NCBI RefSeq assembly: GCF_964204865.1
Contig: NC_135258.1
Location: 5,881,001-5,945,000, forward strand
Direction of reading: 5' to 3'
From: Styela clava
Taxonomy: Eukaryota; Chordata; Ascidiacea; Stolidobranchia; Styelidae
Length of the DNA stretch: 64,000 bases
Under the pieces are notes generated by a model that ran no database searches, was not told where the DNA came from, and was given only the letters and a program-made list of their open reading frames with translations. Positions 22,875 through 48,629 of the stretch are shown piece by piece; the stretch's first letter is position 1; the number at the start of each line of letters is the position of its first letter. A program made the translations under genes and the position numbers.

Positions 22875-25800
22875 CTACCAAGTAAAATTTTTTGAGGTAA
22901 TTAAACTGTAGGTATGTTCCATTGCTTGAGCGCAGATAAGTGACACACATGACTTTTTCCTACAAACTGGACAAGGTTTTAAAGTGTCAGTAGTTTTGGG
23001 AGATTCCTTGACACTTCCATTGCAAAAAGTTAATTCTTGTGAGCTGTCTGTATCTTGGGCAAACTCATTTACATCTTGGTCAGATTCTGCGTTTTTTGAT
23101 AAATCCAACTGGCCATCTTCTACATCATCAGCAGAATTATAGGAAAGCTTCGGCAATTGAAGAGTCTTTTTACATAAAGCACAAGAACAGTAATCTCTGA
23201 TGATCTTTCCCATCTTTGCTGACTCAACACCCAAATTTGAATCTTGGCTTTCACAAGCACTTGTTTCATCATCGTCTAAATTAGAGTTGCATGTGGATCC
23301 AACCTCTCTTACGTCTTCGACAGCATCCAAATCAACGCTAGCTATATCTGAACTTGAAATAGCTATGTAAAAATCAGCATTGTAACTGCTTAAGTTCTTT
23401 TTAAAAGTTTGTGAACCGGAAGTGTTTTCTGAATTTGAAGAAGAAATTTTGGCGTCCAGATCGACATTGTGAGTAATTGATTTTTCACTTTCATTCCGCA
23501 AACTTTCCATGTTCAAGTTATTTTTGACAGAATCTGGTACTACAGTATTCTGAGTGCTGGAATAAGTCTTGTCAGGGTTTGCCAAAGAATCTATATTATT
23601 ACAAAGCTCCATTTCATGGAACTTGCTATCTGCATCGCCAAAAGATCGTTCAATTACAAATGTGGATTCCCTTCCCAGTTCCAATGACTTGACATTTTTT
23701 GTATCACTAGGTTCTTCCTCCCTGCATGATTCGGCATCTTTGGCACTGGTCTTGTTTTCAGAGCGATTTTTCCTGGTTTTACTTTGTTTTGACCGTTTTT
23801 TGATTTTATGAAAGTGTTTCTCATGCTTTTTTAGTCGTGATTTCTTAGCAAAAGTAAGATTGCAATGTTTACAATTGAAATAAACCTGTTCATTTTCAGG
23901 GTGAACATTCATTGTGTGCTTCCGAAACTTCGAGTAAGTTGAAAAACGTTTCTTGCACTTTTCGCAATGGAATGGTTGCACTTTCGCTAAATGAACCTTT
24001 TCCATATGCTGTTTCAGAATTTTTGTTTTGCGAAACCGCTTTCCACATGCAATACAAATATGTTTTTTACGTTTTTTCTTTCTAATATTAAGTGGAATAG
24101 TCGGTAATTCAGGGGTATCGGATAAGATATGATTGGCTGGCTCACGTTGGTCGGAGTTTAAAATATTGCATACAGAGTCACTGGCCGAATCTTCATTACC
24201 ATCTGTGTTGCTAAAAATCTGGTTTTGACTGGATATATCCGACTCTAACCCGTCATCTGTGTGCAATTGCTCTTTGTTGCATACAATTTCACTGGTTACT
24301 TCTTCATTTTCATCTGCTTCCCTCAAATTCTGGTCTAGACCAGTTATATCTGGTTCTAACTTGTCGACAGTGAATAGTTGTCTTTTAGTAGCAGCATTAC
24401 AATCTTTGTTGCATACTGGTTCACTAGTTACTTCTTCATTTTCATCTGCTTCCCTCAAATTCTGATTTTGACTGGTTCTATCTGACTTTAACCAGTCTAG
24501 GAGCAGTTGCTTTTTGGTAGCAGCATTGCGGTCTTTACGCTGAGGTCGAAAAGCGATAACAGGGCTATTGTCTGAACAATTAAAGTCAGAAGACTCATCT
24601 TGATGTATACAAGGTTCATCATCATTTGGAATATCGTCCTTAGTACAAGAACTTTGAATTTTTCTATTGCCGTGCTCTTTTGTAGCATGGGCCTGTTTGT
24701 GGACTCTTGAATCACGGTCATTGTGAAAATTTGCCGTAATACTGGTTGCCACAGTTTCCCCACCGATGCCATTCTCTACAGCATTGTTTGGTTCTTTTAT
24801 ACAATTCTGTACATTTTTATCATTTATACAGCTATATTTTCCAATTTTACTCAAATGCTTCCTCATATGTTTTTGAAGAATCGGTTGTGAAGAGTATTGA
24901 TTTCCACATATACCACAAGAAATATCCCGAGCACCTTTGCGTTCATTTTTATGAATATAGTTTATATGATTCGTTAAGTCACACTTTCTAGGAAATTTCC
25001 TATCGCATAAACTACAATGTAAGCAGTCACTTATATGTACGTTATTAAAATTCCTTCTGTCACTTTTATGTACATCCTTCAAATGTCTCCTGACGTTACG
25101 ACTGCGAGCGAACATTTTATGACAGATATGGCATTGCTTGTCATTGTTAGGAGTAGTTGTAATGCTGTCTTTGTTTTGGGTATCCTTGATTTCGCTTGAA
25201 TCTTTATGTGTAAGCAATATTTCTTGTTTGTCTGACATTCGAGTTGTTTCAGAATTGGCAATAATATCAGATTTTGGCTTAGATTTATGTACATCATTTA
25301 GATGTCTTCTGACATGACGTTTTTGACTAAATGTTTTATGACAGATATGGCATTGCAAGTCACTGTTAGGAGGAGTAGTAATGCTGTCTTTGTTCTGGGT
25401 ATCCTTGATTTCGCTTGAATCTTTATGTGTAAGCAATATTTCTTGTTTGTCTGACATTCGAGTTGTTTCAGAATTGGCAATAATATCAGATTTTGGCTTA
25501 GATTTATGTACATCATTTAGATGTCTTCTGACATGACGTTTTTGACTAAACGTTTTATGACAGATATGGCATTCCTTATCATTGTCGAAAGAGATTGGAA
25601 CTCTGTCAAAATCTGGATCTTCCTGTTTGTCTGATTTTTGGGTCATTTTGGCATATTCATTCATATCAAATTCATGTACGGTTCTCAAATGTCTTATAAC
25701 ATGAGAATTCCGCGTAAATGTTTTACGACAAATATGACATTGCAAGTCGCTGTCAAGAGTAGTTGTAATCCTGTCTTTGTTTTGTGTATCACGAATTTCA

Positions 25801-28181
25801 CTTGATTCTTCCTGTGTAAGCAATGTTTGTTTGTCTAAATTTGCGTTTGTATCAGATATTGGGTCAGAATTATGTGCATTCCTTAAATGTCTTCTGACAT
25901 GAGATTTTTGAGTAAATGTTTTTTGAATATGACATTGCATGCCGCTGTCAGCAGTGGTAATGCTGTCATCGCTTCGTGTTTTCTGAATATCTTCGCGTGT
26001 AAGCAATATTTCTTGTTTGTCTGACTGCTGAGTTATTTCAGAATTTGCATTTATATCAAATTCATGTATGTCCCTTAAATGTCTTCTGACATGAGATTCC
26101 TGAGTGAAGGTTTTGCTACAAATATGACATTGCAAGTCGCTGTCAGTTGTAGTTGTAGTATTGCTGTCCTTGTTTTGTGTATCACAGATTTCGCTTGATT
26201 CTTTTTGTGTATCCAATGTTTCTTGCTTTTCCGACTCCTGAGTGGTTACAGATTTTGGGTCAGATCTATGTGCATTTCTTAAATGTCTTCTGACCTGACA
26301 CTTTTGACTGAACGTTTTATAGCAAATATGACATTGTTTGTCACTGTCATGGGTAATTTGAAAGCTGCCAATATTTTGTGTTTTCTCGTTTCCACTTAAT
26401 TTTTTCCGTTTCTCTGGCTCTTGAATTATTTTTTCAAATAAATCAAGGGTGGGTTCACCGTCATTATTTTTTGTTTTCTGCTTTTCGCTTGATTGCACAT
26501 CTGAGTCCTGAGTTGTTTCAGCATTTGCACCTGTAGAAGGTTGAGGGAGACCGTCAAAATTGTGCGTTTTCTGGTTCCCAATCAATTTTCTTCGCTTTTC
26601 TGATTTTTGGGTTATCTCGGCATTAGCATTTGTAGAGGGTTCATCGACATTATTTTGTGTTTTCTTGTTTCCGCTTAATTTTTTTCGTTTCTCTGGTTTT
26701 TGAGTTATTTTTTCATTCAAATCAATAGTCGGTTCACCGTCAATAGTTTGTGTTTTCTGCTCTTCATTTGATTTTTTCAGCTTCTCTGGCTCTTGATCTT
26801 GAGTTATTTTAGCATTTGAATCTATAGTAGGTTCCGGAACGTCATCAATATTGTGTGTTACCTGGTTTTCTCTCAATTTTCTTCGCTTTCCTGATTTTTG
26901 TGTTCTGGCAGTTGTCAAACATATAGTAGGCTTGGGAACACTGTCAATGTTTTGTATTTTCTGGTTTTCCACCATTTCGTTCTGCAGGGGTGACTCTTGA
27001 GTAATTTTGGCATTCTTCGTGGGCTCACTGTCGTTATTTTTTGTTGTCTGCTTTTCACTTAATATTTTCCACTTCTCCGACTTATGGGTTATTTTGTCAT
27101 TTAAATCTATAGTAGGTTTTGAAACACTGTCAATATTTTGTGTTTTTTGGTTTTCTATCATTTCTTTCTGCGGACGTGATGGCACTTTGTTTTTACTCTC
27201 CATTTCTTGACTTGAATCCATCGGCACACATATTGTTTTGACATTATCGTTTATATCATGTTCCAAACTAGCTGGTTCTTCATGTGACGAAACACCAAAT
27301 TTGGAGAGGTATTTTTTATGATCTCTCAACTTTTCAAGTTTTACAAAACAATTCCAAAGAGAGGAGATATCTAATATCTTGAATGGGGAAGCTTCTCCAT
27401 TTTGGCTATTCTGGACGAATTCTAATGAGTCATCAGTTGAATTTGGGTGTAATGATGACTCATCAATTTTGGAATTTTTTGATAACAATGACTTGGTGAT
27501 TTTTGAATTTTTCAGAAGGCGATCTACAATTTTAGAAAAAGTTCTTCGCGATTTTGACATGTGTTTTTTAGCGTGATATCTTCTATGCCTCTTTAAATCG
27601 ATAGCTCTAAAAAACCTCATTCCACATTTAAAACATTGACTGCCAGATTCATCCTCACTTGAGGAGCGGAATTCGTATATTATATCGCTAATGTCCAAAT
27701 CATCCATCGGAGGTGGAGAGATAGATTTCTGATTTATTATTTGCGTAACAGAATCTTGTTTTTGCACCTCAACTTCTTCTTTTGCTTTGTCAACCAAAAA
27801 CTGCTCGTACTCTGCTTGCTCCTCAAACAGCTTTTCAAATAATGTTCGCTCATCCATAAATTTTACGGAATCAGTACAGTTATCTGTGTGGGAGGTATCC
27901 AAATCTTTTATATCAAATTGCATATTGAATTTTTCGAAAAAATTGCACCGATAGGGGTTTTCAGTGGTTTCAGAATTCTCAAAGCATAATCTTTTATCAT
28001 CGTTAATTTGCCCGGTTTTCGATTGTTGTAAGAATTCCAATTCAGTTGGCATTAGTGACAAATCACCATTTTTGTGGAATTGCGTAGGATTTCCGTCAAC
28101 ACCTGAAGGACGCTCAGGGCTGCAATGAAGCGCCGTTTGTGCAGGTAACGCACAGTTTCGTTCAATATACTTGTCCAACAT
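22875..28181 (-). CDS. Large C2H2 zinc-finger protein, 1768 aa
   Basis: Single uninterrupted coding exon, probably a nuclear DNA-binding regulator. I count about 13 C2H2 fingers: one near residues 182-204 (CFKCGMRFFRAIDLKRH), a run at about 615-1110 mostly of the type CHICHKTFSQKRHVRRH, and three at about 1370-1460 (CIACGKRFRKTKILKQH onward). Fingers 2-8 are separated by long acidic/polar spacers instead of TGEKP linkers. Residues about 330-600 are degenerate 40-50 aa repeats of the form KSEKRRKL..NQKTQN..D..P. One finger (QCHIQKTFTQKSHVRRH) has lost its second cysteine. A C-terminal Cys cluster reads PCPVCRKKSCVSLIC. The N-terminal region around the first finger is shared with the gene at 31,015-33,156, so the two are paralogues. 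No family assignment or target can be read from the sequence. Confidence 0.88.
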   Translation of the reverse strand: MLDKYIERNCALPAQTALHCSPERPSGVDGNPTQFHKNGDLSLMPTELEFLQQSKTGQINDDKRLCFENSETTENPYRCNFFEKFNMQFDIKDLDTSHTDNCTDSVKFMDERTLFEKLFEEQAEYEQFLVDKAKEEVEVQKQDSVTQIINQKSISPPPMDDLDISDIIYEFRSSSEDESGSQCFKCGMRFFRAIDLKRHRRYHAKKHMSKSRRTFSKIVDRLLKNSKITKSLLSKNSKIDESSLHPNSTDDSLEFVQNSQNGEASPFKILDISSLWNCFVKLEKLRDHKKYLSKFGVSSHEEPASLEHDINDNVKTICVPMDSSQEMESKNKVPSRPQKEMIENQKTQNIDSVSKPTIDLNDKITHKSEKWKILSEKQTTKNNDSEPTKNAKITQESPLQNEMVENQKIQNIDSVPKPTICLTTARTQKSGKRRKLRENQVTHNIDDVPEPTIDSNAKITQDQEPEKLKKSNEEQKTQTIDGEPTIDLNEKITQKPEKRKKLSGNKKTQNNVDEPSTNANAEITQKSEKRRKLIGNQKTHNFDGLPQPSTGANAETTQDSDVQSSEKQKTKNNDGEPTLDLFEKIIQEPEKRKKLSGNEKTQNIGSFQITHDSDKQCHICYKTFSQKCQVRRHLRNAHRSDPKSVTTQESEKQETLDTQKESSEICDTQNKDSNTTTTTDSDLQCHICSKTFTQESHVRRHLRDIHEFDINANSEITQQSDKQEILLTREDIQKTRSDDSITTADSGMQCHIQKTFTQKSHVRRHLRNAHNSDPISDTNANLDKQTLLTQEESSEIRDTQNKDRITTTLDSDLQCHICRKTFTRNSHVIRHLRTVHEFDMNEYAKMTQKSDKQEDPDFDRVPISFDNDKECHICHKTFSQKRHVRRHLNDVHKSKPKSDIIANSETTRMSDKQEILLTHKDSSEIKDTQNKDSITTPPNSDLQCHICHKTFSQKRHVRRHLNDVHKSKPKSDIIANSETTRMSDKQEILLTHKDSSEIKDTQNKDSITTTPNNDKQCHICHKMFARSRNVRRHLKDVHKSDRRNFNNVHISDCLHCSLCDRKFPRKCDLTNHINYIHKNERKGARDISCGICGNQYSSQPILQKHMRKHLSKIGKYSCINDKNVQNCIKEPNNAVENGIGGETVATSITANFHNDRDSRVHKQAHATKEHGNRKIQSSCTKDDIPNDDEPCIHQDESSDFNCSDNSPVIAFRPQRKDRNAATKKQLLLDWLKSDRTSQNQNLREADENEEVTSEPVCNKDCNAATKRQLFTVDKLEPDITGLDQNLREADENEEVTSEIVCNKEQLHTDDGLESDISSQNQIFSNTDGNEDSASDSVCNILNSDQREPANHILSDTPELPTIPLNIRKKKRKKHICIACGKRFRKTKILKQHMEKVHLAKVQPFHCEKCKKRFSTYSKFRKHTMNVHPENEQVYFNCKHCNLTFAKKSRLKKHEKHFHKIKKRSKQSKTRKNRSENKTSAKDAESCREEEPSDTKNVKSLELGRESTFVIERSFGDADSKFHEMELCNNIDSLANPDKTYSSTQNTVVPDSVKNNLNMESLRNESEKSITHNVDLDAKISSSNSENTSGSQTFKKNLSSYNADFYIAISSSDIASVDLDAVEDVREVGSTCNSNLDDDETSACESQDSNLGVESAKMGKIIRDYCSCALCKKTLQLPKLSYNSADDVEDGQLDLSKNAESDQDVNEFAQDTDSSQELTFCNGSVKESPKTTDTLKPCPVCRKKSCVSLICAQAMEHTYSLITSKNFTW
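25136..25574 (-). repeat. 219-bp in-frame tandem duplication inside the large zinc-finger gene
   Basis: Two nearly identical units with a 219-bp (73-codon) period. Each codes for one finger (CHICHKTFSQKRHVRRH) plus its spacer (KSDIIANSETTRMSDKQEI). The two units differ at only a few bases, while neighbouring finger units are clearly more diverged, so this duplication is recent. Confidence 0.9.
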
Positions 28182-28747
28182 ACTGTCATCTACGATCCGT
28201 TATACTTTTTATTCAAGAAGAATTCTTCAAAAAATATTCCCTTCCTTTCAATGTAGTCTTGTTCAGTTGTTGTAGTCATTACAGATGTTTACAGTAGGCT
28301 GAAAGACATCCTGATAGAACTACAAACCTAAATTAATTTATTCTGAAATCTGAGAAAAAAATATTGGATCATGACATAGAAATAACATGAATATGCTGAT
28401 AAAAGATAATAACCTGAACAAATAAAGATTAGGAAATTCGAACTAGCACACGAACTAAGCACAGGATGGAAATTCAGAAAAAAATCAAATAAAACGGCAA
28501 TATTTTAAAAGTGAAGAATATGGGTTGGATGGTTTAGAGACGCTTCGGTCCACGATACCAATTACTTATTTTGCTATTATCAGTGGAAGTGAATTGTCGC
28601 GTTATTGTAAGGTGGGGTATATGCATGTACAACTATATTAAAGTTTATGACACTGCCACTACAAACCTTAAAGCCATCTTCATGCATCAATAGGCATGGG
28701 TTAAAGGTCACTATATTACGGGTATTTTATTTTATTGTTCATTATTT
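28182..28747. other. 5' flank of the large zinc-finger gene, nothing distinct
   Basis: AT-rich. The large minus-strand zinc-finger gene must be transcribed from here or further right. I see no clear TATA box or coding exon. Confidence 0.4.
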
Positions 28748-28861
28748 GGCGCTCCTGAAGTATGCATACCAAGATGGCGGACACTGAAACGTAGTATGTG
28801 TTCCAGGTTAGGCCATAATTTCCGATGTCCGCCATCTTGGTACGCATACTTCAGGAGTACC
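28748..28861. mobile_element. Palindromic MITE (family A) with perfect 8-bp duplication
   Basis: GGCGCTCCTGAAGTATGCAT to CGCATACTTCAGGAGTACC. Flanks CATTATTT on both sides. The inner arm reads GGCGGACA instead of GGCGCACAACC, so this is a subfamily variant. Confidence 0.92.
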
Positions 28862-29225
28862 CATTATTTTTTTATTGCAATTAATGAAAGAGATAAAAAT
28901 TAAAAGTTCCAACGCAAATTAAACAACACCATTCTTTGTTTTTTAACATCCGACATAAAACTCATACGCATCGGACATTGTGTAAAGTAATGAACCAAGA
29001 AAAAGAACATATTTAAATCATCATAATTAAATAATTAAATCAATTTTTATTTTCATTAATAGTCATAATAACTAATAAATATGGTAAATAGCAAGATAAT
29101 TCATTTTCATTAATAAAATTCTTCGCTCTCAGTTATCTGTATCGTAGCTGAAACGTCTGGTACAATAAGTCTTATGCCAGTTAGTTTTCAACCTTTTAGC
29201 AAGTGGATATTATATAGGATGGGAA

Positions 29226-29415
29226 GGGTGTCCATAAAGTCTTGCATAAAAAATTGCAAAGGAAATTTACATACAGTTTTGGCCCTCACAGATGTATTAA
29301 ATGAAGTAAAAATACTTAAACAATTACTGATTGAATTACAACAAACCTGGTTAAGATATATTGAGAACTGACTTCATAACAAAATTGAAATTGTAAAGAG
29401 ACTTTATGGACACCC
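29226..29415. mobile_element. 190-bp mariner-type MITE
   Basis: Perfect 17-bp terminal inverted repeats GGGTGTCCATAAAGTCT, which is a mariner-like end. The interior has a short open frame without recognisable transposase motifs. Confidence 0.8.
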
Positions 29416-29520
29416 GATGTTCCAAAAACTAAGGATACGATAGCCTACTGTCTGTCTAGTGGTGTCTACGATACAGTTAACAGTTACTACAATTCATAAA
29501 TTCAGTCATTGGGAGTTTTA

Positions 29521-29743
29521 GGTACTCCCCAGGTATGTGAACCAAGATGGTGGACACCGGAACGTAGTATGTGTACCAGGTTAGAGTTGGGCCATAATTT
29601 TATACCAATTTTCCTTATTTTAGTTCTATTACAAGTTCGAAGATTAGCCAAGTAACTCTCATAGTCTTTGTACCTGAAATTAAGGCCTAACCTTAACCTG
29701 GTGGTGGTGTCCGCCATCCTGGTTCTCATACTTCAGGAGTACA
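29521..29743. mobile_element. Hybrid family A/B MITE
   Basis: Outer ends are family A (AACCAAGATGGTGGACACC and the inverse ending CTTCAGGAGTAC), with a family B interior (TTCCTTATTTTAGTTCTATT, ACAAGTTCGA). It shows that A and B are variants of one lineage or can recombine. Confidence 0.75.
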
Positions 29744-30639
29744 AAAATTTTGGAATATACAGGTATAGGCTATACCTGGCTATATATGTATTCTCAATCG
29801 TCTCATAGTGGTAAGAAACATAAACAAGTTGACAATTATTAATATTGGACGGGATATATGCACAAGACTATACCGGCATGAAACACATTTTTTCGGCATG
29901 CATATTAAAAAACATCTTGTATACAGTATTAAACACAATATTTTGGCATACACCACTTTTGATAAATATTGAACAGCAAATCTATGCATGCAAATTCATG
30001 TCTTCACACATAATTCAAAAAGTTGTCTGCTAGAAATCATCTCAGTCCTGATGTAACTGCTGCATGTGCAAAGATCAAAACTACACAATAACAACCAATG
30101 ATTATAATGACTTGTGGAAGAAAAGATGATGCAGCAAGTATCTAATTGATGGACGGTTGATCAAATACCTATGGCCCAGTCTTCAATTCATTGAAAAAGG
30201 CTCGCCACCATTGGTTTAGCTTATCAAAGCAAATGTAATCTATTTGGAAATGGCATTAGAATACCTGCAAGGAGGCTAAGCCAACTTTACTAATTTTGAG
30301 TAAAATTTGACAATATTCAAATCAGAATTGATAAAATCTCATAAAGGCAAAACTAGTTATTAAGTAAACTGAAGAGTAGAGAACCATTAATCTTAGTGTT
30401 AATCTTATTAAGTTTAGTAAAACCTAACCTTGGAAAAAAGATAAACATCTCATCACATATTTCCTCTCGGTAAAATATAGTACAATTCTATACAGTATTC
30501 CGTATATAATAATAATAATATGAAAAAATGGATACCATATTGTAAATAACAATAAAAGCTAAATTTTATGAGTAAATAATCTCAAAGGCACCAACATACA
30601 GAAAAATTCAGTACTTTTAGCAGTATAGGATAATATTTA
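29744..30639. other. Intergenic, no gene seen
   Basis: AT-rich, with a small AATAATAATA microsatellite near 30,510. Nothing else identified. Confidence 0.4.
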
Positions 30640-30930
30640 CATATTTATCCTACGAGAGAAGAAAGCCCATAAGGTGGCAAACCACGGCCTCTCGTCCGGT
30701 TACCATTCCATGTCGGGTATGGTATTAGTTTGGCAGTTATTAGTTTTTGGAAGCATGAACTTGGTAGAGAAAGCTGTAACCCACCAGCGGTTATGTTTAC
30801 GAGAACCACCACCCTATGGCGACGAGGAGTCCACCAATCCTTTTGCACATATTTATCCCCGCATCAGATTCGAATGGCGAGCGTAGTCATAACGCTTAGC
30901 ACAATGTGCCACACTGCCTATCCGAATATT
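30640..30930 (-). repeat. SINE, downstream of the 713-aa zinc-finger gene
   Basis: Carries CCACGGCCTCTCGTCCGGTT, AGCTGTAACCCACCAGCGGT, GCGACGAGGAGTCCACCAAT and GCGAGCGTAGTCATAACGC. The B box is replaced by ATCAGATTCGAATGG. It begins 84 bp after the stop codon of the gene. Confidence 0.75.
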
Positions 30931-31014
30931 TAATATAAAATCCAGCAAGGCTGGGCGACGCCCAGATATCAAATCACACCCTTGACTGACTGATCGATTT
31001 CAGAAAAAAAATAT

Positions 31015-33156
31015 TCAGCAGGGATTGTGACATTGAGTGGGCACCTTATTCACTGGACTTGAACACCTCAGATTATTACAACAATAAGAATCTTCGCCTG
31101 TGTGACTCCTCATGTGATCTTTCAATTCATGAAAACGAAACAAATCCCCGCACATTTCGCAAAAGTATATCCAGCATCTGTTTAAATCCAAATGAGTTTG
31201 AAATTCTTTTTCATTCAAAAATTTTTCTGCACATTTCACACATTCAAGGTATAATTTTTCTGTGTATTTTTCAAAATGCTTTTCTAAGTGTTTCATAGAC
31301 GTAAAACTAATGTTGCAGTCAGGACAAATAGGTTTAGAAGAATGAATCATAATTTCGTGTTTCACCAAGCATGGTTTATGCTTGAATATTTTATCACAAA
31401 ATTTGCAGACATATTCATTTCGAGCTCTGTGTAATTGTACAATTTCTCTGCATTGGTGGTTTTCATATTGAGAAATGATAGAGCTGCTGCTTTCGCTAGA
31501 AAATTGATTCGATTCGATAACATGGTTGCCAGATTTTGAGATAGTTGGTGATTCTTTGTGTGTCAAATCAATAAACTCGTTGCCAAGCTGTATATGTGGC
31601 TCTTTACCATAGAGAATGAAATCTTCAATAACATAACTCTCAATCGCCACAGAGCTGCACTCCTTTGCAGCATGGCCTTGAATAACAGTCATAGGTTCCT
31701 CATTGCTGCACCTCTCCACGACATCATTCGTTTTTTTTAGACAATTCCTTTCTTTGTCTTTTATAATAACTTTTTCTTTTCCAATTTTACTCAAATGTTT
31801 TCCCATATGTTTTTCAAGATTCCAACGCGTGGAGTATTCGTTTCCACATACGTAACACAAAAAATCCGAATAAAATTTTTTGTCATTTTTATGAGCACGG
31901 TTCATGTGTCGACTGAAGTCAGACTTTCTGGAAAATCCCTGGTTACAGGTGCTACAAAAAATTTTATGTACCTCCCCTAAATGTCTTTTGACATGTTGTT
32001 TTCGACTCAACGTTAACAATTTATGTACCTCCCTCAAATGTCTTCTGACGTGTTGTTTCTGACTGAATGTTTTATGGCAGATATGACATTGTTTTCCGCT
32101 GTCAGCAGTATTTCGGAAACCACCAATATTTTGTTTTTTCCGGTTTTCTCTTAGTTCTTTCTGAGGAAACAATGGTGCTAGTACTTTTGACCTTTTCGTT
32201 GTTTTGAGATTTGCATTTATACCTAGTTTTGGGTCAGATTTATTTACGTTCCTTAAATGCACGTTCTTGGTTGTTTTTGCTTTTGCATTTGTACCTAGTT
32301 TTGGGTTAGATTTATGTACATTCTTCAAATGTCTTTTGACATGATCTTTTCGAGTAAACATTTTACGGCAAATATAGCATTGCAGGTTCTTGACACAATG
32401 AATTGGGACACCGTCATTATTTTTTGTTTCATGATTTCCACTTAAATTTTTCTGTACAAGTGATGACGCTTGTTTGCTTTCACTTTTCAATTTTTCACCT
32501 GACTTCTCAGACTTTTTTTGATTTGTTATGGCATTTCCATTTATATCATGCTCTGAGATAACAGATTCTTCATGCAATGCAACATTCAAGTTTAAAAAGT
32601 ATTTTTCATAACTTGTTAACTTTTTAATATTCACAAAACAATCTTGTAAGGAGGAGATATCCTCAATCTTATTTCTGCCATTCTTCTTGAATACGGAAGA
32701 TTCTTCATTAGGGCTGTCTTGGAAAATTTCTAATGACTCGTCAGTTTTTTCAAAACTGGTTTGGACCACTGAAGACGATTCAGCAATTATTGAAATTTGT
32801 AGTAACGGCGGCGACTCAACAGTTTTGAAATTTTCAAAATTATTACAATTTTGAGAAAAACTGTCTCGTGAATTTGAATGAGTTTTTTTAGCATGATATC
32901 TTAAATGTCTCTGTAAATCGATGGTTCTAAAAAACTTCATTCTACATTTAAAACATTCGTCGCCAGATTCATCCTCACTTGAGGCTTCATTGCCAGATTC
33001 ATTCTCACTTGAGGGTTGAGACTCAGATAGATCACTGCTTTCCGAATCCTCTACGGGGGATGGGGAATCTGATCTCTGATCTACTACTATTGTAATTAAA
33101 TCTTGATTTCCGACGCCGTCATCTTCTATTGATGGATCAACCAAAAAAGACATCAT
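31015..33156 (-). CDS. C2H2 zinc-finger protein, 713 aa, C-terminus truncated
   Basis: First ATG at 33156; the open frame extends upstream only through a GTG. A TTTTCCAG acceptor-like site lies about 40 nt upstream, so a 5' non-coding exon is likely. An acidic, Ser-rich N-terminus precedes a first finger (CFKCRMKFFRTIDLQRH, about residues 70-90) shared with the 1768-aa neighbour. About eight further fingers follow. One has lost its CxxC half (LSRKQHVKRHLGEVH), one is atypical (CPDCNISFTSMKHLEKH, ending in Y-T-E) and one is C2HC-like (HLDLNRC). From about residue 540 it is collinear with the 294-aa protein at 38,315. That similarity stops right after GEDSY, where the paralogue goes on for four more fingers. 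The last about 18 residues here are encoded by sequence resembling antisense mariner transposase. Confidence 0.85.
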   Translation of the reverse strand: MMSFLVDPSIEDDGVGNQDLITIVVDQRSDSPSPVEDSESSDLSESQPSSENESGNEASSEDESGDECFKCRMKFFRTIDLQRHLRYHAKKTHSNSRDSFSQNCNNFENFKTVESPPLLQISIIAESSSVVQTSFEKTDESLEIFQDSPNEESSVFKKNGRNKIEDISSLQDCFVNIKKLTSYEKYFLNLNVALHEESVISEHDINGNAITNQKKSEKSGEKLKSESKQASSLVQKNLSGNHETKNNDGVPIHCVKNLQCYICRKMFTRKDHVKRHLKNVHKSNPKLGTNAKAKTTKNVHLRNVNKSDPKLGINANLKTTKRSKVLAPLFPQKELRENRKKQNIGGFRNTADSGKQCHICHKTFSQKQHVRRHLREVHKLLTLSRKQHVKRHLGEVHKIFCSTCNQGFSRKSDFSRHMNRAHKNDKKFYSDFLCYVCGNEYSTRWNLEKHMGKHLSKIGKEKVIIKDKERNCLKKTNDVVERCSNEEPMTVIQGHAAKECSSVAIESYVIEDFILYGKEPHIQLGNEFIDLTHKESPTISKSGNHVIESNQFSSESSSSIISQYENHQCREIVQLHRARNEYVCKFCDKIFKHKPCLVKHEIMIHSSKPICPDCNISFTSMKHLEKHFEKYTEKLYLECVKCAEKFLNEKEFQTHLDLNRCWIYFCEMCGDLFRFHELKDHMRSHTGEDSYCCNNLRCSSPVNKVPTQCHNPC
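31023..31079 (+). mobile_element. Mariner/Tc1-type transposase remnant, antisense to the zinc-finger 3' end
   Basis: Plus-strand reading from 31023 gives DIEWAPYSLDLNTSDYY. It resembles the conserved motif around the catalytic aspartate of mariner/Tc1 transposases (EWAPxSPDLxxxDYYLW type). The similarity is about 17 residues and then runs into the zinc-finger coding sequence. No other transposase part was recognised. Short, hence only moderate confidence. Confidence 0.55.
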
Positions 33157-33823
33157 GAGGTGACTATACACACATGATGATTTATATTGAAATCTGGAAA
33201 ACGAAATAACATTTCATTTTAATGAATTACAAAGTTAAACGTAGAAGATCAGAAGATTCTCACTACCACCATCCTTCAATGCGATCAGAGTTATGCACAT
33301 GTTAGCTGGGTTTGAGAGCATGTTGATAATATTTGATAATAAGTAAATAAAATGAGAATAGTGTGTGCTGTGGCAAATAATTTCGTAACAAGCACAAGTT
33401 TGTCTAAAATAATTTTTCATTGTCAGTTAAAAATGGGAATCGATAAGTAACTGTATGAAATAGAGATTTGGCAAAGTTAATTAATCATGAAATTATATTC
33501 AGGGATGTCTAAATCTAATTGAATAGTCAGATTCTAATTTATTGGAATAACCCGACCTTGGAATATTTATTTTAGAGTTCATAAGAATATCGAATATCAC
33601 ACACAAATCCTCACCACAACGCTTTCATAGAACAAAAGCATGAAAACCTGAAATTTCTATACCCCATCACGTTTTTTGGTCGCCTGTTAATTCAAGAATT
33701 ATTGTAAAAGAATTTACTAACATAACAGTGATTTAAAATTTGTACGACCACCCTTATTTCAATCTCACAATAAGCGCTGCAGGTGTGAAGCTCAAAACTA
33801 GGCTACATGTTACCAACCCATAA
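33157..33823. other. 5' flank of the 713-aa zinc-finger gene
   Basis: Minus strand reads TTTTCCAG about 40 nt before the first ATG, a likely acceptor. A tiny upstream frame (ATG TGT GTA TAG) sits between it and the start. Nothing further identified. Confidence 0.4.
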
Positions 33824-34005
33824 TGGTACTCCTTCTGTATGCGAATCAAGATGGCGGACATCGGAACGTAGTATGTGTACCAGATTAGGATTAGCCCATA
33901 ATTTCAGGTACCAATACTACGGGAGTCACTTGGCTAGTCCCCGAACTCGTAATATAACTAAAATAAGGAAAATTGGAATAAAACTATGGCCTAACCCTCA
34001 AATTT
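33824..34005 (+). mobile_element. Hybrid family A/B MITE, rearranged
   Basis: Begins GGTACTCCTTCTGTATGCG with the A arm AATCAAGATGGCGGACATC. It continues with GTAGTATGTGTACCAGATTA and the B part TCCCCGAACTCGTAATATAA to ATGGCCTAACCC. The right end is lost. Confidence 0.65.
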
Positions 34006-34029: not shown

Positions 34030-35680
34030 ACTCACAGTCTTCTTTTACATGATAAAAATGGGCTATAATGACTGTCATCGCTGCCCTACAAGGATCTTGT
34101 CAAACGAGATTCTACTGTGACGTTTTTTGCTATAATCTTTTCATTATTAAATCCTGTTAAAGCATCTTCATGATTCATAGAGTTGAAGGTAAATTTTCTA
34201 TGTATTACTGTATAGGCCTATATAATGATAATCTGCAAAAAATAATGAATACTGAATTCAAAGAACTGAATAAAATTCATGAGAAAATAATCTCAAAGGC
34301 ATCAACACACACAGAAATAAGAAGTTCAACACATTTATAAGCAATGATGAATATATAAAAAACTTGTGGCCTAGTAGTTAGCACTTTAGTTTGAACTAAT
34401 TATGTTAGAATTTTTTATAGAAGGACCAAAATTTTTTTGATTCAGCAATTCCCTCACACTTTTATTAGACCTTTTACTTGGTGTAGATCATTGAATCTAA
34501 GTTCTTAAACACAAGTTCATCAGGCTGGCCACTAATAGAGAATCTATTATCAGACTTCAAAGAAATTCAATTTACATAAGGTATGGTGCAGAGAACGAAG
34601 CAAAAATAACGTGATAGTTGCAAGATACAAATCAAGTTCGAAGAGAATTTGAGAATTAAAGTCACACAACATACAATTAATAAAGTCACACAACATACAG
34701 CTTATGCATATAACGGTTCCATTACATTTGAACCCACGTACATTTGAACCCACGACGATTGCACCTGCACACTATTGCACCTATGAAAAATTTTGTTGTT
34801 TTACGGATATTTGAACCCATACTAACCCTAACCCATACTAACCCTAACCCATGGGTTTAGCACCCGCATATACATTGAACGCGCGAATATACACATGGGT
34901 TCAAGTGTACGGTCACCGCATATAACATATGTACAGAAGATTTTTCAAAAACATGAAAATAAATGGAATCAAAAAATTCCGTATAGTGTGTGTGTAGGAA
35001 AAATTGATAAAACAACAAGTATACAGAAGAATACAGGAAATGATCGCGCAAAACAAGTAAGGCAAGTATATGCAGACCCCCAAACTGTGAATTTATAAAA
35101 CTTCTCATTTAGGTCAACCCTACAAAACGTAACATACCATACAGCAAATGATTGCAGAACAGAATTAGTGTGATCAGAGTTATGCGCATACAAGCCAGTT
35201 CCTAGTTTTGTAATTTTTTTCAAGTTTCAAACATGGCTTATATGCGAGGATATATTTTTGTCGTATACTCTACACCAGAAGTGAATATTTCAGAAGACCA
35301 GCAATTCAAGAAGTCTGCTACCAGAAAAAAATACTGTACGGTACTTATGGATAATCCATAAATATCAAAGACTGTTTATGCAAAGACTGAATCCCCACTG
35401 CTTCGAACAAAAAACTGAGCCAGAGCTCCAAGAACAAAGAGCCACAGGTTGCCGACTGCTGATGTAGAGCTTTGTTCGAAATGGAAGGCACAAAAAACTC
35501 ATAAAAATATTCTAACAGTTCATGAAATCAAGAATATAATCAATATCCATTACTGGATATGGTTTAATAATCAATTCGTTTGGACATCGCTGATAAATAA
35601 CTACATAGCATAAGATATGAAAAGTGTGCACTGCGGAGTATGACAGTCGAGAATGACAAAATGATAGGTATCTATCTATA
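34030..35680. other. Intergenic, no gene seen
   Basis: Only short frames without recognisable similarity. Confidence 0.4.
34790..34860. repeat. Short telomere-like tandem repeat
   Basis: CCATACTAACCCTAA is repeated, ending ACCCATGGGTTTAG. Only a few units, internal, so an interstitial low-complexity repeat and not a telomere. Nearby (34,660-34,750) are two other small tandem duplications: AAAGTCACACAACATACA and TACATTTGAACCCACG. Confidence 0.7.
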
Positions 35681-38314: not shown

Positions 38315-39199
38315 TTATATATGTTGCGAACTTTTATGATTATTGGTAGAGGATTGATATGCATGTTTTTTCCCTTTTTTATGCATTTCGAGCATATGTG
38401 TTGATGAAAAAATGAGCTCACAAATTGAGCAGGTTCGTTTTTCTATATCATGAGATTGAACATGTCTCTTGTACAACCACCTTGTGCAAAACTGTCTGTC
38501 ACAAACTGTACAAATATATCTGGATCTTCCTCGCACATGTTTATTAAAATGTGCTTCCTTGATGAATCTTCTTTTACATAAATCGCACTCAAGTGTGTTC
38601 TCATTATTATGAGTTTGCATATGTTCCAAAACCGATGTCTCAGAACTGAATTCTTTTCCACATGAATTACAATGATAAGAATCTTCGCCTGTGTGACTTC
38701 GCATGTGATCTTTCAATTCATGAAACTGAAACAAATCCCCACAAATTTCGCAAAAGTATATCCAGCATGTGTTTAAATCCAAATGAGTTCGAAAATTTTT
38801 TTCCTTTGAAAAATTCATAGCGCATTTCACACATTCAAGATATAATTTTTCTGTGTATTCTTCAAAATGATTTTCTAAGTGTTTCAATGAAGTAAAATTA
38901 GTTCCGCAATCAGGACATGTAGGTTTACAGAAGTGAATCATAATTTCATGTTTCACAAGGCATGGTTTACCTTTGAAGATTTTTTCACAAAATTGGCAAA
39001 TATATTCATTTCGAGCTTTGTGTAATTTTACGATTTCTTCGGATGAGTGGTTTTCATCTTGAAAACCAGAAAAACTGCTGCTTTCACCAGAAAATTCATT
39101 TGATTCGATAACCTGGTTGCCAGATTCTGAGATGGTTGTCGATTCTTCGTGTGTTAAATCAATTACTGTCTCATCCTGTTGATCTTCCGAAGAACTCAT
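38315..39199 (-). CDS. C2H2 zinc-finger protein, 294 aa
   Basis: Compact paralogue of the C-terminal third of the 713-aa protein: both share IDLTHEES-like acidic sequence, ARNEYICQFCEKIF, LYLECVKCA and HELKDHMRSHTGEDSY. Eight finger-like units: about four good C2H2 fingers, one C2HC-like (HLDLNTC) and three degenerate. It begins at an ATG in the acidic region (MSSSEDQQDETVIDLTHEES) and lacks the N-terminal fingers of its paralogues. It could be a short gene or the 3' exon of a longer one; no convincing upstream coding exon was seen. Confidence 0.8.
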   Translation of the reverse strand: MSSSEDQQDETVIDLTHEESTTISESGNQVIESNEFSGESSSFSGFQDENHSSEEIVKLHKARNEYICQFCEKIFKGKPCLVKHEIMIHFCKPTCPDCGTNFTSLKHLENHFEEYTEKLYLECVKCAMNFSKEKNFRTHLDLNTCWIYFCEICGDLFQFHELKDHMRSHTGEDSYHCNSCGKEFSSETSVLEHMQTHNNENTLECDLCKRRFIKEAHFNKHVRGRSRYICTVCDRQFCTRWLYKRHVQSHDIEKRTCSICELIFSSTHMLEMHKKGKKHAYQSSTNNHKSSQHI

Positions 39200-43850: not shown

Positions 43851-45455
43851 TCAATTTTTTGAAGCAGTAGCTGAAATTTTTGCTTTAGAAGATTTATTGT
43901 TAACATGTCCTAAGATATGTTTCTGAGCACAGACTTTGATATGAAAATATTTCCCACAATGACCACATTTGTATGGTTTTTTTCCTGCAAAAGCTTGCTC
44001 ATGTTTTTCTAAAGAAGTTTCGTCTGAAAACTCTTTGTTACAGACTTTGCACAAATAAGATTCTTTGGGTACTTCCTCAGTCTGGCCAAACAGCATCAGT
44101 TCATCACCCACTGCGTCAGTATTCAAACTCGCAGGGTCTGGGTTACAAGGTTGATAGGTGAAATGAATTATTTTGACATCATGTGAGTTCTTATGTAAAA
44201 TGAAGTCTGTTTTACTACTGAAGGTTTCTTTACATATAGAACAAGCTATAGGTTTTGCATGAGTTTTCATATGTCTTTCAAGTAAATCTTTGCTGTAAAA
44301 ATTCCTTTTACAATCAATACAGTGAAATGATGCACCAACTCCGTGCTTTCTTAAAACGTGCCGTCTAAGATCACATGCCCTTGCGGCTCTATAGTCACAC
44401 TGAGAACATGGATGGATTCTGTCTTGGGAATGCATGTACACCATGTGTGCCTTCAGAGATGATTTTTGTGTGAAACGATTTTGGCAAGTACTGCATACAA
44501 ATTCCTTCTTGCCTGTATGTATTCTACTGTGATCTGTTAACAAAGTTTTTGAGCTAAATCGCTTCCCACATTCATCACAGTTATATGGTTTTCCTACAGT
44601 ATGCAATCTAATATGCTGAGACCAGGTACTTTTGAGACGTAATCTATGTCCGCAAATGTAACATGGAAATGGTTTTTCCCCGGTATGAATTCTGATATGT
44701 TCTTCCACAATTTCCTTTGAAAAAAACTTTCTGTCACATGTTTTACATGCATAAACAGACTTTATATCAGTATGTTTGATGTTATGTTCGATAAAAGATT
44801 TCTTCGTCTGGAGAGGAACTTCACATACTTTACAACACAAATCTTTATCCATCAACTTATCCATTAGTGCCACCTGCTGTTCAGGGGTAGTCCCATTCAC
44901 GATCTGCTGGTTTTCAGTCAAGACTGGACTACTGTTTTCTGGAGAAACCGTTTCGCCACCACAGCTTATCGCAGTGTTTGAATGAAGTTGTCCGCTATCT
45001 CTCCTTCCATCTCCATCATCAGGATAATGCAAACTCAGATGAATGTCATACGTTTTCTCTCTGGTAAACATTTCTCCACAAATCACACATATTCGTTTGG
45101 AAATACTTTCATGTTTTTTCCTATGATTTGTTAACTTGTTATTGTTTGCAAAAACATTCCCGCATACTTCACATGAATGTGTTTTTTCAACAGCATGTAC
45201 TCTAATGTGATCCACCCATATTTGACTACTTGAAAATCTCTTCCCACATTGATTACATTCAAATGGTTTTTCACCTGTGTGAGCTCTATTATGTTGAATT
45301 AGTTCAGATTGTCTTGAGAAGGTTCTGTGACAAGCATCACATTCATAAGGTCTGAATAAATTTTCATGTAGCTTCGACACAGGGTCAACAGAAGCACATC
45401 CTAGAATGTTGATAGTGGCGACTTGACGAGGTACAGAACCATCGTAAATCGACAT
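43851..45455 (-). CDS. C2H2 zinc-finger protein, 534 aa, 14 fingers
   Basis: Begins MSIYDGSVPRQVATINILG. An acceptor-like TATATTCAG ends 2 nt before the ATG, so the coding exon probably starts there after a 5' non-coding exon. A trans-spliced leader would look the same. Fingers start near residue 35 (ECDACHRTFSRQSELIQH). Four fingers, a spacer of about 50 residues, then eight contiguous fingers, a second spacer, and two more. TGEKP-type linkers occur after several. The 13th finger is degenerate (LEKHEQAFAGKKP lacks the last His). Probably a nuclear sequence-specific DNA-binding protein. It is not an obvious close paralogue of the three genes to its left. Confidence 0.88.
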   Translation of the reverse strand: MSIYDGSVPRQVATINILGCASVDPVSKLHENLFRPYECDACHRTFSRQSELIQHNRAHTGEKPFECNQCGKRFSSSQIWVDHIRVHAVEKTHSCEVCGNVFANNNKLTNHRKKHESISKRICVICGEMFTREKTYDIHLSLHYPDDGDGRRDSGQLHSNTAISCGGETVSPENSSPVLTENQQIVNGTTPEQQVALMDKLMDKDLCCKVCEVPLQTKKSFIEHNIKHTDIKSVYACKTCDRKFFSKEIVEEHIRIHTGEKPFPCYICGHRLRLKSTWSQHIRLHTVGKPYNCDECGKRFSSKTLLTDHSRIHTGKKEFVCSTCQNRFTQKSSLKAHMVYMHSQDRIHPCSQCDYRAARACDLRRHVLRKHGVGASFHCIDCKRNFYSKDLLERHMKTHAKPIACSICKETFSSKTDFILHKNSHDVKIIHFTYQPCNPDPASLNTDAVGDELMLFGQTEEVPKESYLCKVCNKEFSDETSLEKHEQAFAGKKPYKCGHCGKYFHIKVCAQKHILGHVNNKSSKAKISATASKN

Positions 45456-46281
45456 GACTGAATATACAAAAATTATTCAACTCTGTTCCTATATGTATCA
45501 TAAAATCCTAGTAAAATGCACGGTATTTGAAATTAAAATAACTGTAGTTGATGTAATACTGAAAATCTGATGCTGTAAGCTGCAATCTTTTATTCAGTTT
45601 ACTATGTTTTTTTCATAGTTTTTTTAAACTTCATGTATAATTCAGTGTTTATATAGAACAGAATTTGCTCTGAATACTGTTCAAACTTCGATACTCCCAT
45701 ATATGATCAACTATTTTCTTAGAAAATGTCCATTTTTTGGTGATTTTTAAAGTAAAGAAGATTAGTTTAATAAGGCAGACAATAAACAACCTAATAAAAG
45801 AGAAAGGGTAATAAAGATATGGCATTAATCAACAAATATAGTATCATTAAATTAATTATTAAACAAAATGGTGGCAATCAGGTATGTGAAAAAACAGGAA
45901 ATTGAGTATTGAATACGGCCGCACAACATTTACCATCCTTAATAAAATACTTCGACTACTACCGGTAATTTAACACGACATAATGAACGTAAAATTAGAA
46001 AGTTGATTCTAGGGAAATGTATATTGGAACATTATATTTTGATAGTGAAATATAGAGTATTTCATACATCGATAAATTGATATAAAATCTACAATAAAAT
46101 TTCTCAAAAGTATAAAGGTTTAAAAATTATGTTAAAGACTGATAATATGCAGTCTTCAGTAAAAAGTAGTGAAAATTGCAGTAATAAGGTGAAATTGCGA
46201 TAATAATTCACAAAAATTCAAGATATTTCAACACTTGGAGGGATATCCATAGGAAAAAGTGAACTAGCAAGCATATTAACC
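45456..46281. other. Intergenic between the last two zinc-finger genes
   Basis: AT-rich, no frame or repeat recognised apart from the start of the MITE at 46,282. Confidence 0.4.
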
Positions 46282-46535: not shown

Positions 46536-47672
46536 CTAAGTTGTTTCTATGGGACGAGAGTAAGAACTGTCAACCCGATGAGAGTCTAAATGACACTTCA
46601 AAGTTGTGGCGTTGAAAAATTCCTTGTTACAGATTGCACATTTTAAAGATTTATTACCAGAACAAGATTTACTGCCTGAATTTGAGTTTATTTCTGACTC
46701 TGCTGTGCTCCAAACACCATGAATCTTCGTATGAGATCTTAAATGAGAATTTCTAATGAACCTTTTGTCACACATATTACATTGAAAAGGTTTATCACCA
46801 GTATGAATTTTTGTATGATCACGTAAATGTGAGGCTTTCAAAAATCGTTTACCACATTTTAAACATTGAAACGGTTTTTCGTCAACATGTATTTTTGAAT
46901 GATCTTTGAGATGAGAATCATCACAAAAACTTTTCTCACATTTGGGGCAAGTTACAGGTTTTTCTATAGCGTGTATTCTCATATGTTTCCTCAATACCGA
47001 TAACTGTGTAAACTGTTTTAAACAAACCAAGCACATATGTGGTTTTTCACCAGTATGTAGTCGTAAGTGGTTTTTTAATGTACTTGAATGAGCAAAAGCT
47101 CTTCCACAAGTTCCACATATAAATGGTTTTTCTCCTGTATGCACCACCATATGATTTTTTAAGGTAGCAGGATGCGCAAATTTTTTGTCACAATGTTCAC
47201 AAGCATATGGTTTTTCACCAGTATGTACATGAAGATGATGATCAAAACTAAATTTGTCACGAAACTCTTTTCGACATGTTCCACAACTATATTGCTTATC
47301 TCCGGTATGTGCCCTTCGTCGATGCCGCACTCGTTTCACGCTGTCAGAAAACAGTTTTCCACACCACTCACAAGCATATCCACCAGATACATTTCTGGCC
47401 CTTGCTTGATCAATTAATTGTCTCGATATCACATCAGAAGTTGATTTAGAATCACTTTGTGAAATAAATTCTCTTTGATATTGAACTTCAACAATATTGA
47501 CGACCTCTGATTCTTGACCTTTAACCCCATCTAACTTCGAAACCAAATCGTTAGCTGATTTAGAGTTAGTGGCCGTAACATTAAACACGTATTCCTTAAT
47601 CCCATTTTGAAGTTTGATATCAGAATGGGTCCAATTCTGAGAATTGAGCGTCGTTGTTACATCGAGAGACAT
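46536..47672 (-). CDS. C2H2 zinc-finger protein, 378 aa, 9 fingers
   Basis: ATG at 47672 (MSLDVTTTLNSQNWTH); the four codons before it only extend the frame from a GTG. About 100 residues without fingers, then eight contiguous C2H2 fingers from YACEWCGKLFSDS to CDKRFIRNSHLRSH with TGEKP/TGDKP linkers. A last separate finger follows (CAICNKEFFNATTLKCH). All Cys and His ligands are present. This regular array is typical of metazoan transcriptional regulators; the target is unknown. Its 3' end lies 38 bp from a MITE at 46,282-46,498. Confidence 0.9.
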   Translation of the reverse strand: MSLDVTTTLNSQNWTHSDIKLQNGIKEYVFNVTATNSKSANDLVSKLDGVKGQESEVVNIVEVQYQREFISQSDSKSTSDVISRQLIDQARARNVSGGYACEWCGKLFSDSVKRVRHRRRAHTGDKQYSCGTCRKEFRDKFSFDHHLHVHTGEKPYACEHCDKKFAHPATLKNHMVVHTGEKPFICGTCGRAFAHSSTLKNHLRLHTGEKPHMCLVCLKQFTQLSVLRKHMRIHAIEKPVTCPKCEKSFCDDSHLKDHSKIHVDEKPFQCLKCGKRFLKASHLRDHTKIHTGDKPFQCNMCDKRFIRNSHLRSHTKIHGVWSTAESEINSNSGSKSCSGNKSLKCAICNKEFFNATTLKCHLDSHRVDSSYSRPIETT

Positions 47673-48629
47673 TGCAATAACCACATACTATGAATGCCAA
47701 GAACCAGAAATATAATGAGAAAAATTACAACAATTATTAAACATATCAATACACCTCTGAGAATGTGTAGTTTGGTAGGGACAATGGAGTTTTGTCATTT
47801 AAATGACGCTGAAGTCAAGTTTACCATAATAGATGGACCTTAATAAGCTCCTAACTATCTTATTTTTCACATTCATAATTTTGTAATACACGGTATAAAT
47901 ATTAGAATCTATTTCTCTCACTTTACAGCTAATAATTTTTTTAAATTCAATTTGTAATACTAATTAATAAGTTTCAAATTGAATTCGTATATTCAAAAGA
48001 TAAATTTCAAAATTTAGGCTGATGTTTCCGGTAGTGGTACAGTATTGTATGGAGCAAAGGCCTGACTACGGAGCTTACAATATTTCTCTGGACACCGGGC
48101 CATTGTAATTTAAAACCGTCTACGCAGCCCTAGCGCATCATGCTTAGTTTTAGAAACACACCTCAATGATCAACCTATAAGACTCTGCAAATTGTATAAA
48201 AAATTTTCTTGTCTAAAACTACATAACCAATGGTTTAAATTGGATACTTTCGCAAAACTGAAGGGCAAATTAAAAAAAAAATGATTCAGTCGTTTCGCTT
48301 AATTTAAAGTAGAACAAGATGGAGATTACTGTTTATGTAATTATCCGTAATTAATATCCGTAGAAACCCTTTATATTGATTTTTAAAAATATTATAGAAA
48401 CTTTTTTGTTTGTTGCCATGCACACCCCGGCTATATCAGTGCGGTAAACTAAGTTCAAAATTCCTCGTAGCATGCAGTACACTAAACGTGAATAAACATG
48501 GGTCAGGGTTAGCATGTGTAACAAACAATAAAGTGCAAAGAAGTTTATAAGTTCAAGCTGTTATTTCTGCTATTGACATTATCTTAATAATTATAACAGT
48601 AAAATTTTATTTTGACTCCATAATACAGT
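47673..48629. other. 5' flank of the 378-aa gene, no further gene
   Basis: The minus strand has an acceptor-like GGCATTCATAG about 20 nt before the ATG. Nothing else identified. Confidence 0.4.

Follow-up and report, generated by a model that had tools for sequence, protein, structure and literature searches.

Host–transposase fusion genes carry transposase-derived DNA in the reading frame of a host gene. In Drosophila, tandem duplications are known to yield chimeric genes as well as genes that have recruited non-coding sequence (PMC4503668). There, an intragenic breakpoint joins part of a gene either to part of another gene or to previously non-coding DNA, and a new frame and stop result.

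The locus described here, a C2H2 zinc-finger gene (gene C) in a 64-kb window (the whole stretch of Styela clava DNA that was analyzed), shares features with both systems. As in host–transposase fusions, transposase-derived DNA lies within its frame; unlike them, the transposase sequence is antisense and broken, and its domain is not encoded. As in the Drosophila cases, a piece of one gene is joined to other sequence, but gene C combines both kinds of join in one gene, and the split between its block and that of its paralogue, gene B, is old (dS of 0.20–0.41, depending on method). By anatomy, then, gene C fits both the chimeric-gene and the recruited-sequence classes, and it may have originated by tandem duplication. 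The genes and the parts of gene C are as follows.

22875–28199, minus strand: gene A, an open frame of 1774 aa that encodes C2H2 fingers and is related to the earlier part of gene C.
31015–33153, minus strand: gene C, 712 aa.
31591–33153, minus strand: the A-like part of gene C, residues 1–521, from its blastp match to gene A.
31075–31572, minus strand: the B-like block of gene C, residues 528–693 (498 bp, 84.3% identical to 38666–39163).
31018–31074, minus strand: the tail of gene C, residues 694–712, 19 codons that lie in transposon sequence and read antisense to the former transposase frame.
31015–31017, minus strand: the TGA stop codon of gene C, within the element piece.
38315–39199, minus strand: gene B, the paralogue, 294 aa, which retains four C-terminal fingers absent from gene C.

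All three genes have C2H2 matches in Pfam. Gene C is a C2H2 zinc-finger gene by PF00096 (E=9.5e-22; 76.6 bits against a cut-off of 25.2), and zinc-finger families are the only ones that Pfam finds in it. Its protein is a patchwork. Residues 3–375 match gene A at 37% identity (E=9e-41) and residues 232–521 at 32% (E=2e-46), both blastp alignments having large gaps; from residue 528 the protein is 76% identical to gene B. The match to A ends at residue 521, seven residues before the match to B starts. On either side of the block common to B and C, the two neighborhoods show no further homology, short repeats excepted. In a search with the gene C protein of the one genome examined (376.6 Mb in 379 contigs), in which 63 of 2326 candidates were scored, the strong matches were B and A, members of the same cluster; the others (E=1.3e-11 or weaker) fell for the most part on the B-like fingers and appear to be generic to fingers of this kind. 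Gene C thus has contiguous parts homologous to two genes in one frame, as a chimeric gene does. Since the A match stops at residue 521, the B match begins at residue 528, and the end is transposon sequence, gene C is, on sequence comparison, a mosaic that starts with sequence of A type, continues with sequence of B type, and ends in a transposon.

The 3′ join can be placed to within a few bases. An earlier note on this DNA had gene C collinear with the 294-aa paralogue up to the residues SHTGEDSY, with the paralogue continuing through four more fingers where gene C has 18 unrelated residues and a stop. Alignment with 38315–39199 bears out the four additional fingers of B, and the tail of gene C (its last 19 codons and stop) is indeed unrelated to B. 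Collinearity holds for 167 of the 712 residues (C 528–694 with B 13–179), the earlier part of the protein matching gene A instead. The DNA homology runs three residues past SHTGEDSY (CCN against HCN), to position 31075, and the tail is therefore 19 residues long (694–712); the 713 aa given for the protein includes the stop. Because the C–B match stops at 31075 with no continuation, the end of gene C, 31015–31074, is not B-like. The plus strand of this tail reads EWAPYSLDLNTSDYY, as had been reported, and belongs to a longer piece of repetitive DNA.

30941–31078 (left edge 30940/30941), plus strand in the sense of the transposase: a 138-bp piece from within an element of a degenerate Tc1/mariner-like family, with sharp edges on both sides.
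31075–31078: bases homologous to both gene and element, ATTA (strict overlap TTA, 31076–31078).
30622–30918: a second interspersed repeat adjoining the element piece, with copies elsewhere in the window and the genome.

The element is present as the earlier note had it, and its extent is greater than was given there. Searched against the genome as DNA, 30800–31200 returned at least 45 matches, with 40 of 461 candidates scored. Apart from gene C itself and B, five matches cover parts of 30941–31078 at 74–81% identity; the remainder represent the adjoining repeat on the left. For the piece itself, the best three copies elsewhere in the genome have E-values of 2.8e-26, 1.9e-21, and 7.4e-21, and over alignments of >65 bp the piece is 70–81% identical to other copies. 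The similarity of the C-terminal tail to this repeat family is far beyond chance. The overlap of 3–4 bp at the join could easily be a chance event.

The edges of the piece emerge from an alignment of 16 copies, in which the window agrees with the majority base at 0.63–0.90 per 20-base bin inside the piece (30940–31079), against 0.35–0.43 to its left and 0.39–0.67 to its right. This alignment omits matches above E=1e-4, four copies that are the same as or near-identical to a copy kept (L009, L010, L016, and L022), and three that are near-identical to each other and have no stand-in (L024, L025, and L027). Three related copies, L003, L004, and L005, align well to each other to the left of the piece and for ~31 bases to its right, and the similarity of L005 to both L003 and L004 passes both edges of the window piece. 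In L009, the piece corresponds to approximately positions 520–658 from the left end of the element, and it is therefore internal. Neither terminal inverted repeats nor a TA target-site duplication is found at this site, as both element ends are lost.

The family itself is numerous and decayed. A genome search with 801 bp of the kin copy L005 gave at least 61 matches, with 40 of 952 candidates scored; identities were 67–83% once the query copy and two short pieces (85 and 88%) are set aside. The ends of the family read GGGGTGACCCCCGAAAAAAACGGAACCC in L009, with a near relative in L026, and the latter suggests a full element of ~0.8–0.9 kb. Inverted arms of 46–192 bp occur in five of seven kin loci tested; there are none around the element in L009 and L014, and they are absent at the gene C site. 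The translation of a kin copy, VDSWFQQDKATAQISNHAFDWKRERFQKRMISRKCDVEWAPYSLNLNTSDFRGSI, finds 48 places in the genome, including the window at 30957–31079 (E=4.0e-10; 61% identity over 42 aa, with one TGA). At none of these 48 places does the open frame surrounding the match exceed 144 aa, and the family therefore looks dead in this assembly. As an aside, the kin copies L015 and L016 (1–3617) and L024, L025, and L027 (1–3626) have equal or near-equal scores and lie at spaced places on contig C16, which suggests segmental duplications.

A transposase origin of the tail, as the earlier note proposed, is supported by the genomic copies, by the protein match to kin copies, and by a match to a transposase of solved structure. 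For the last of these, a profile of ten stop-free pieces, the window's among them, has the Sleeping Beauty transposase as its best relative among solved structures (E=7.8e-5; the next has E=0.29). Pfam returned no family for any of 12 pieces of the tail and its kin, some of them from the same copy, and solved structures searched with single sequences yielded no relative; one match to an antibody chain (E=1.8) was set aside as chance. The proposed transposase hit was absent from Pfam, but the copies elsewhere in the genome and the profile match make up for its absence there. An FQ-D ... EW.P.S.DLN region is also present in the piece and its kin; its DLN motif is typical of the Tc1/mariner superfamily. 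Support for a DDE/D transposase core of Tc1/mariner type in the tail DNA comes from one moderate profile match together with the kin match at E=4e-10, and on the former and the DLN motif region the assignment of this DNA to the superfamily is supported, not proven. Unlike known Tc1/mariner transposons, the site has only a 138-bp internal piece that contains a stop.

The reading preferred here, at a probability of roughly 0.77, is that gene C is a breakpoint mosaic: a 5′ part of A type, a 3′ part shared with B, and an end joined to a dead, antisense, Tc1/mariner-like piece. Its 3′ part would be a partial copy held in common with gene B, and the breakpoint would join this block to an internal piece of a dead element lying antisense to the gene. 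The breakpoint would have removed, or never taken in, the last four fingers of B, with the frame of gene C then running 19 codons into the element and stopping there by chance. Such a breakpoint may be a deletion, or a partial duplication that ended in or beside the element. The order of events could take two forms: gene C may have acquired part of B as a copy, or B may itself be a partial copy of the 3′ half of gene C, which would have lost its end later.

The earlier note had offered a transposon insertion or a deletion junction. The second part of this proposal stands, in the broader form of a breakpoint by deletion or partial duplication, and the first does not, as the site has no element end and the 3′ part of B turned up neither past the piece nor, at the level of DNA similarity, anywhere else in the genome. 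Plain insertion is not supported because the piece is internal and sharp-edged, the last four fingers of B do not resume beyond it, and searching the genome at the DNA level gave no second copy of them. A plain insertion would leave the other half of the gene past the element; the remaining 351 bp of gene B have no second copy within the window, which makes a breakpoint the simplest reading. Genome-wide, a DNA search with gene B found three places, namely B itself, the block in gene C, and one 63-bp match at 81%, and it did not find a second copy of B's last four fingers, although diverged copies can be missed by such a search. The join would have been made by an error of repair or duplication, not by transposition. 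It is a real but ordinary rearrangement scar.

Whether the frame that ends in this way is a working gene bears on a further reading, in which gene C would be a pseudogene undergoing decay, its tail merely marking the point at which the frame happens to end. This would fit the breakpoint but not a working protein, and it is judged unlikely, though it fares best among the alternatives. Gene C does lack the four fingers of B and has a non-homologous end, and a stop after 19 codons would be expected of unrelated sequence. Against decay stand its 712 stop-free codons and the comparison with B, in which dN/dS is below 1 by all four methods: 0.33 by NG86 (dN 0.135, dS 0.410), 0.38 by maximum likelihood (dN 0.134, dS 0.354), 0.43 by YN00 (dN 0.148, dS 0.345), and 0.58 by LWL85 (dN 0.119, dS 0.203). 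C and B differ at five positions where a Cys or His is involved; by reading of the alignment, four of these are not finger ligands and the fifth is beside the first cysteine of the cut-off finger. On this reading, the complete fingers of the B-like block retain their Cys/His ligands. In neutral simulations started from gene C, with substitutions only and no insertions or deletions, the frame remained stop-free in 60 of 500 runs at 0.02 substitutions per site and in 6 of 500 at 0.05, but in none of 500 at 0.1, 0.17, or 0.2, so that neutrality predicts stops at 0.1 or above.

Given its open frame and a dN/dS of 0.33–0.58 relative to B, gene C is likely to be under constraint. These values span both lineages and the time before truncation, and together with the stop-free runs at low divergence they are compatible with a recent truncation followed by neutrality. 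They favor constraint during much of the period after C and B separated, though not specifically after the truncation. The shortened protein is presumably made.

A second alternative is that splicing of the actual transcript takes place upstream of the tail, leaving the 19 codons untranslated. The last 65 bases contain seven GT dinucleotides, but fingers for such a transcript to reach are wanting: the genome DNA search shows no B-like fingers besides those of B itself, and none lie between 28200 and 31014, which renders this explanation doubtful. A single ATTAAA occurs 81 bases past the stop of gene C and says little, since 0.66 would be expected by chance.

Weakest, and improbable, is a scenario in which a Tc1/mariner element inserted directly into the final third of gene C and later deletions left a 138-bp remnant and took the 3′ end of the gene; the element-derived tail and the many copies of the family (48 places at the protein level, the window included) would suit it, but there is neither an element end nor a B-like continuation downstream, and it requires deletions on both sides of an element whose insertion the present sequence does not record.

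If the breakpoint mosaic is accepted, the locus is a clean worked case of reshuffling in a zinc-finger cluster, with three adjacent genes that have parts in common, one join placed to a few bases, and old transposon debris that supplies a new C-terminus and stop. It leaves knowledge of how such genes arise unchanged. A more ambitious proposal is that gene C encodes a functional DNA-binding protein of three sources, with an A-type array, four B-type fingers, and an antisense transposon tail in place of the rest of the B array, selected for altered DNA binding. If this were true, shortening and re-joining of the finger arrays would have changed which DNA gene C binds; the sequence gives it only a slim chance.

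The surroundings of gene C contain other repeats.

29226–29415: a 190-bp element with perfect 17-bp terminal inverted repeats (GGGTGTCCATAAAGTCT).

This element had been described as a nearby MITE of mariner type. The element is there, but its mariner type is not upheld, as no TA flanks it in the sequence and its best match to the loci compared has E=0.07. A link to the junction was rejected, as no connection to the family of the tail was found. Copies of a short repeat family, carrying AAGATGGCGGAC or a close variant of it, occur at 28752–28861, 29521–29742, and 33825–33998 and elsewhere in the window, partly as inverted pairs. Rfam gave no matches at gathering score in the whole window, and a tRNA scan of 28000–34000 gave none. 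Flanking gene C, a 48-bp stretch at 30560–30607 is 85% alike to 34271–34318, and this pair may be either a repeat or the trace of a local duplication. Further along, the open frames at 43851–45476 and 46536–47687 also look C2H2 by eye. Within gene A, 25065–25573 is a tandem repeat of 2.3 copies with a 92% match; its 219-bp unit, a multiple of three, is by eye a finger plus its linker.
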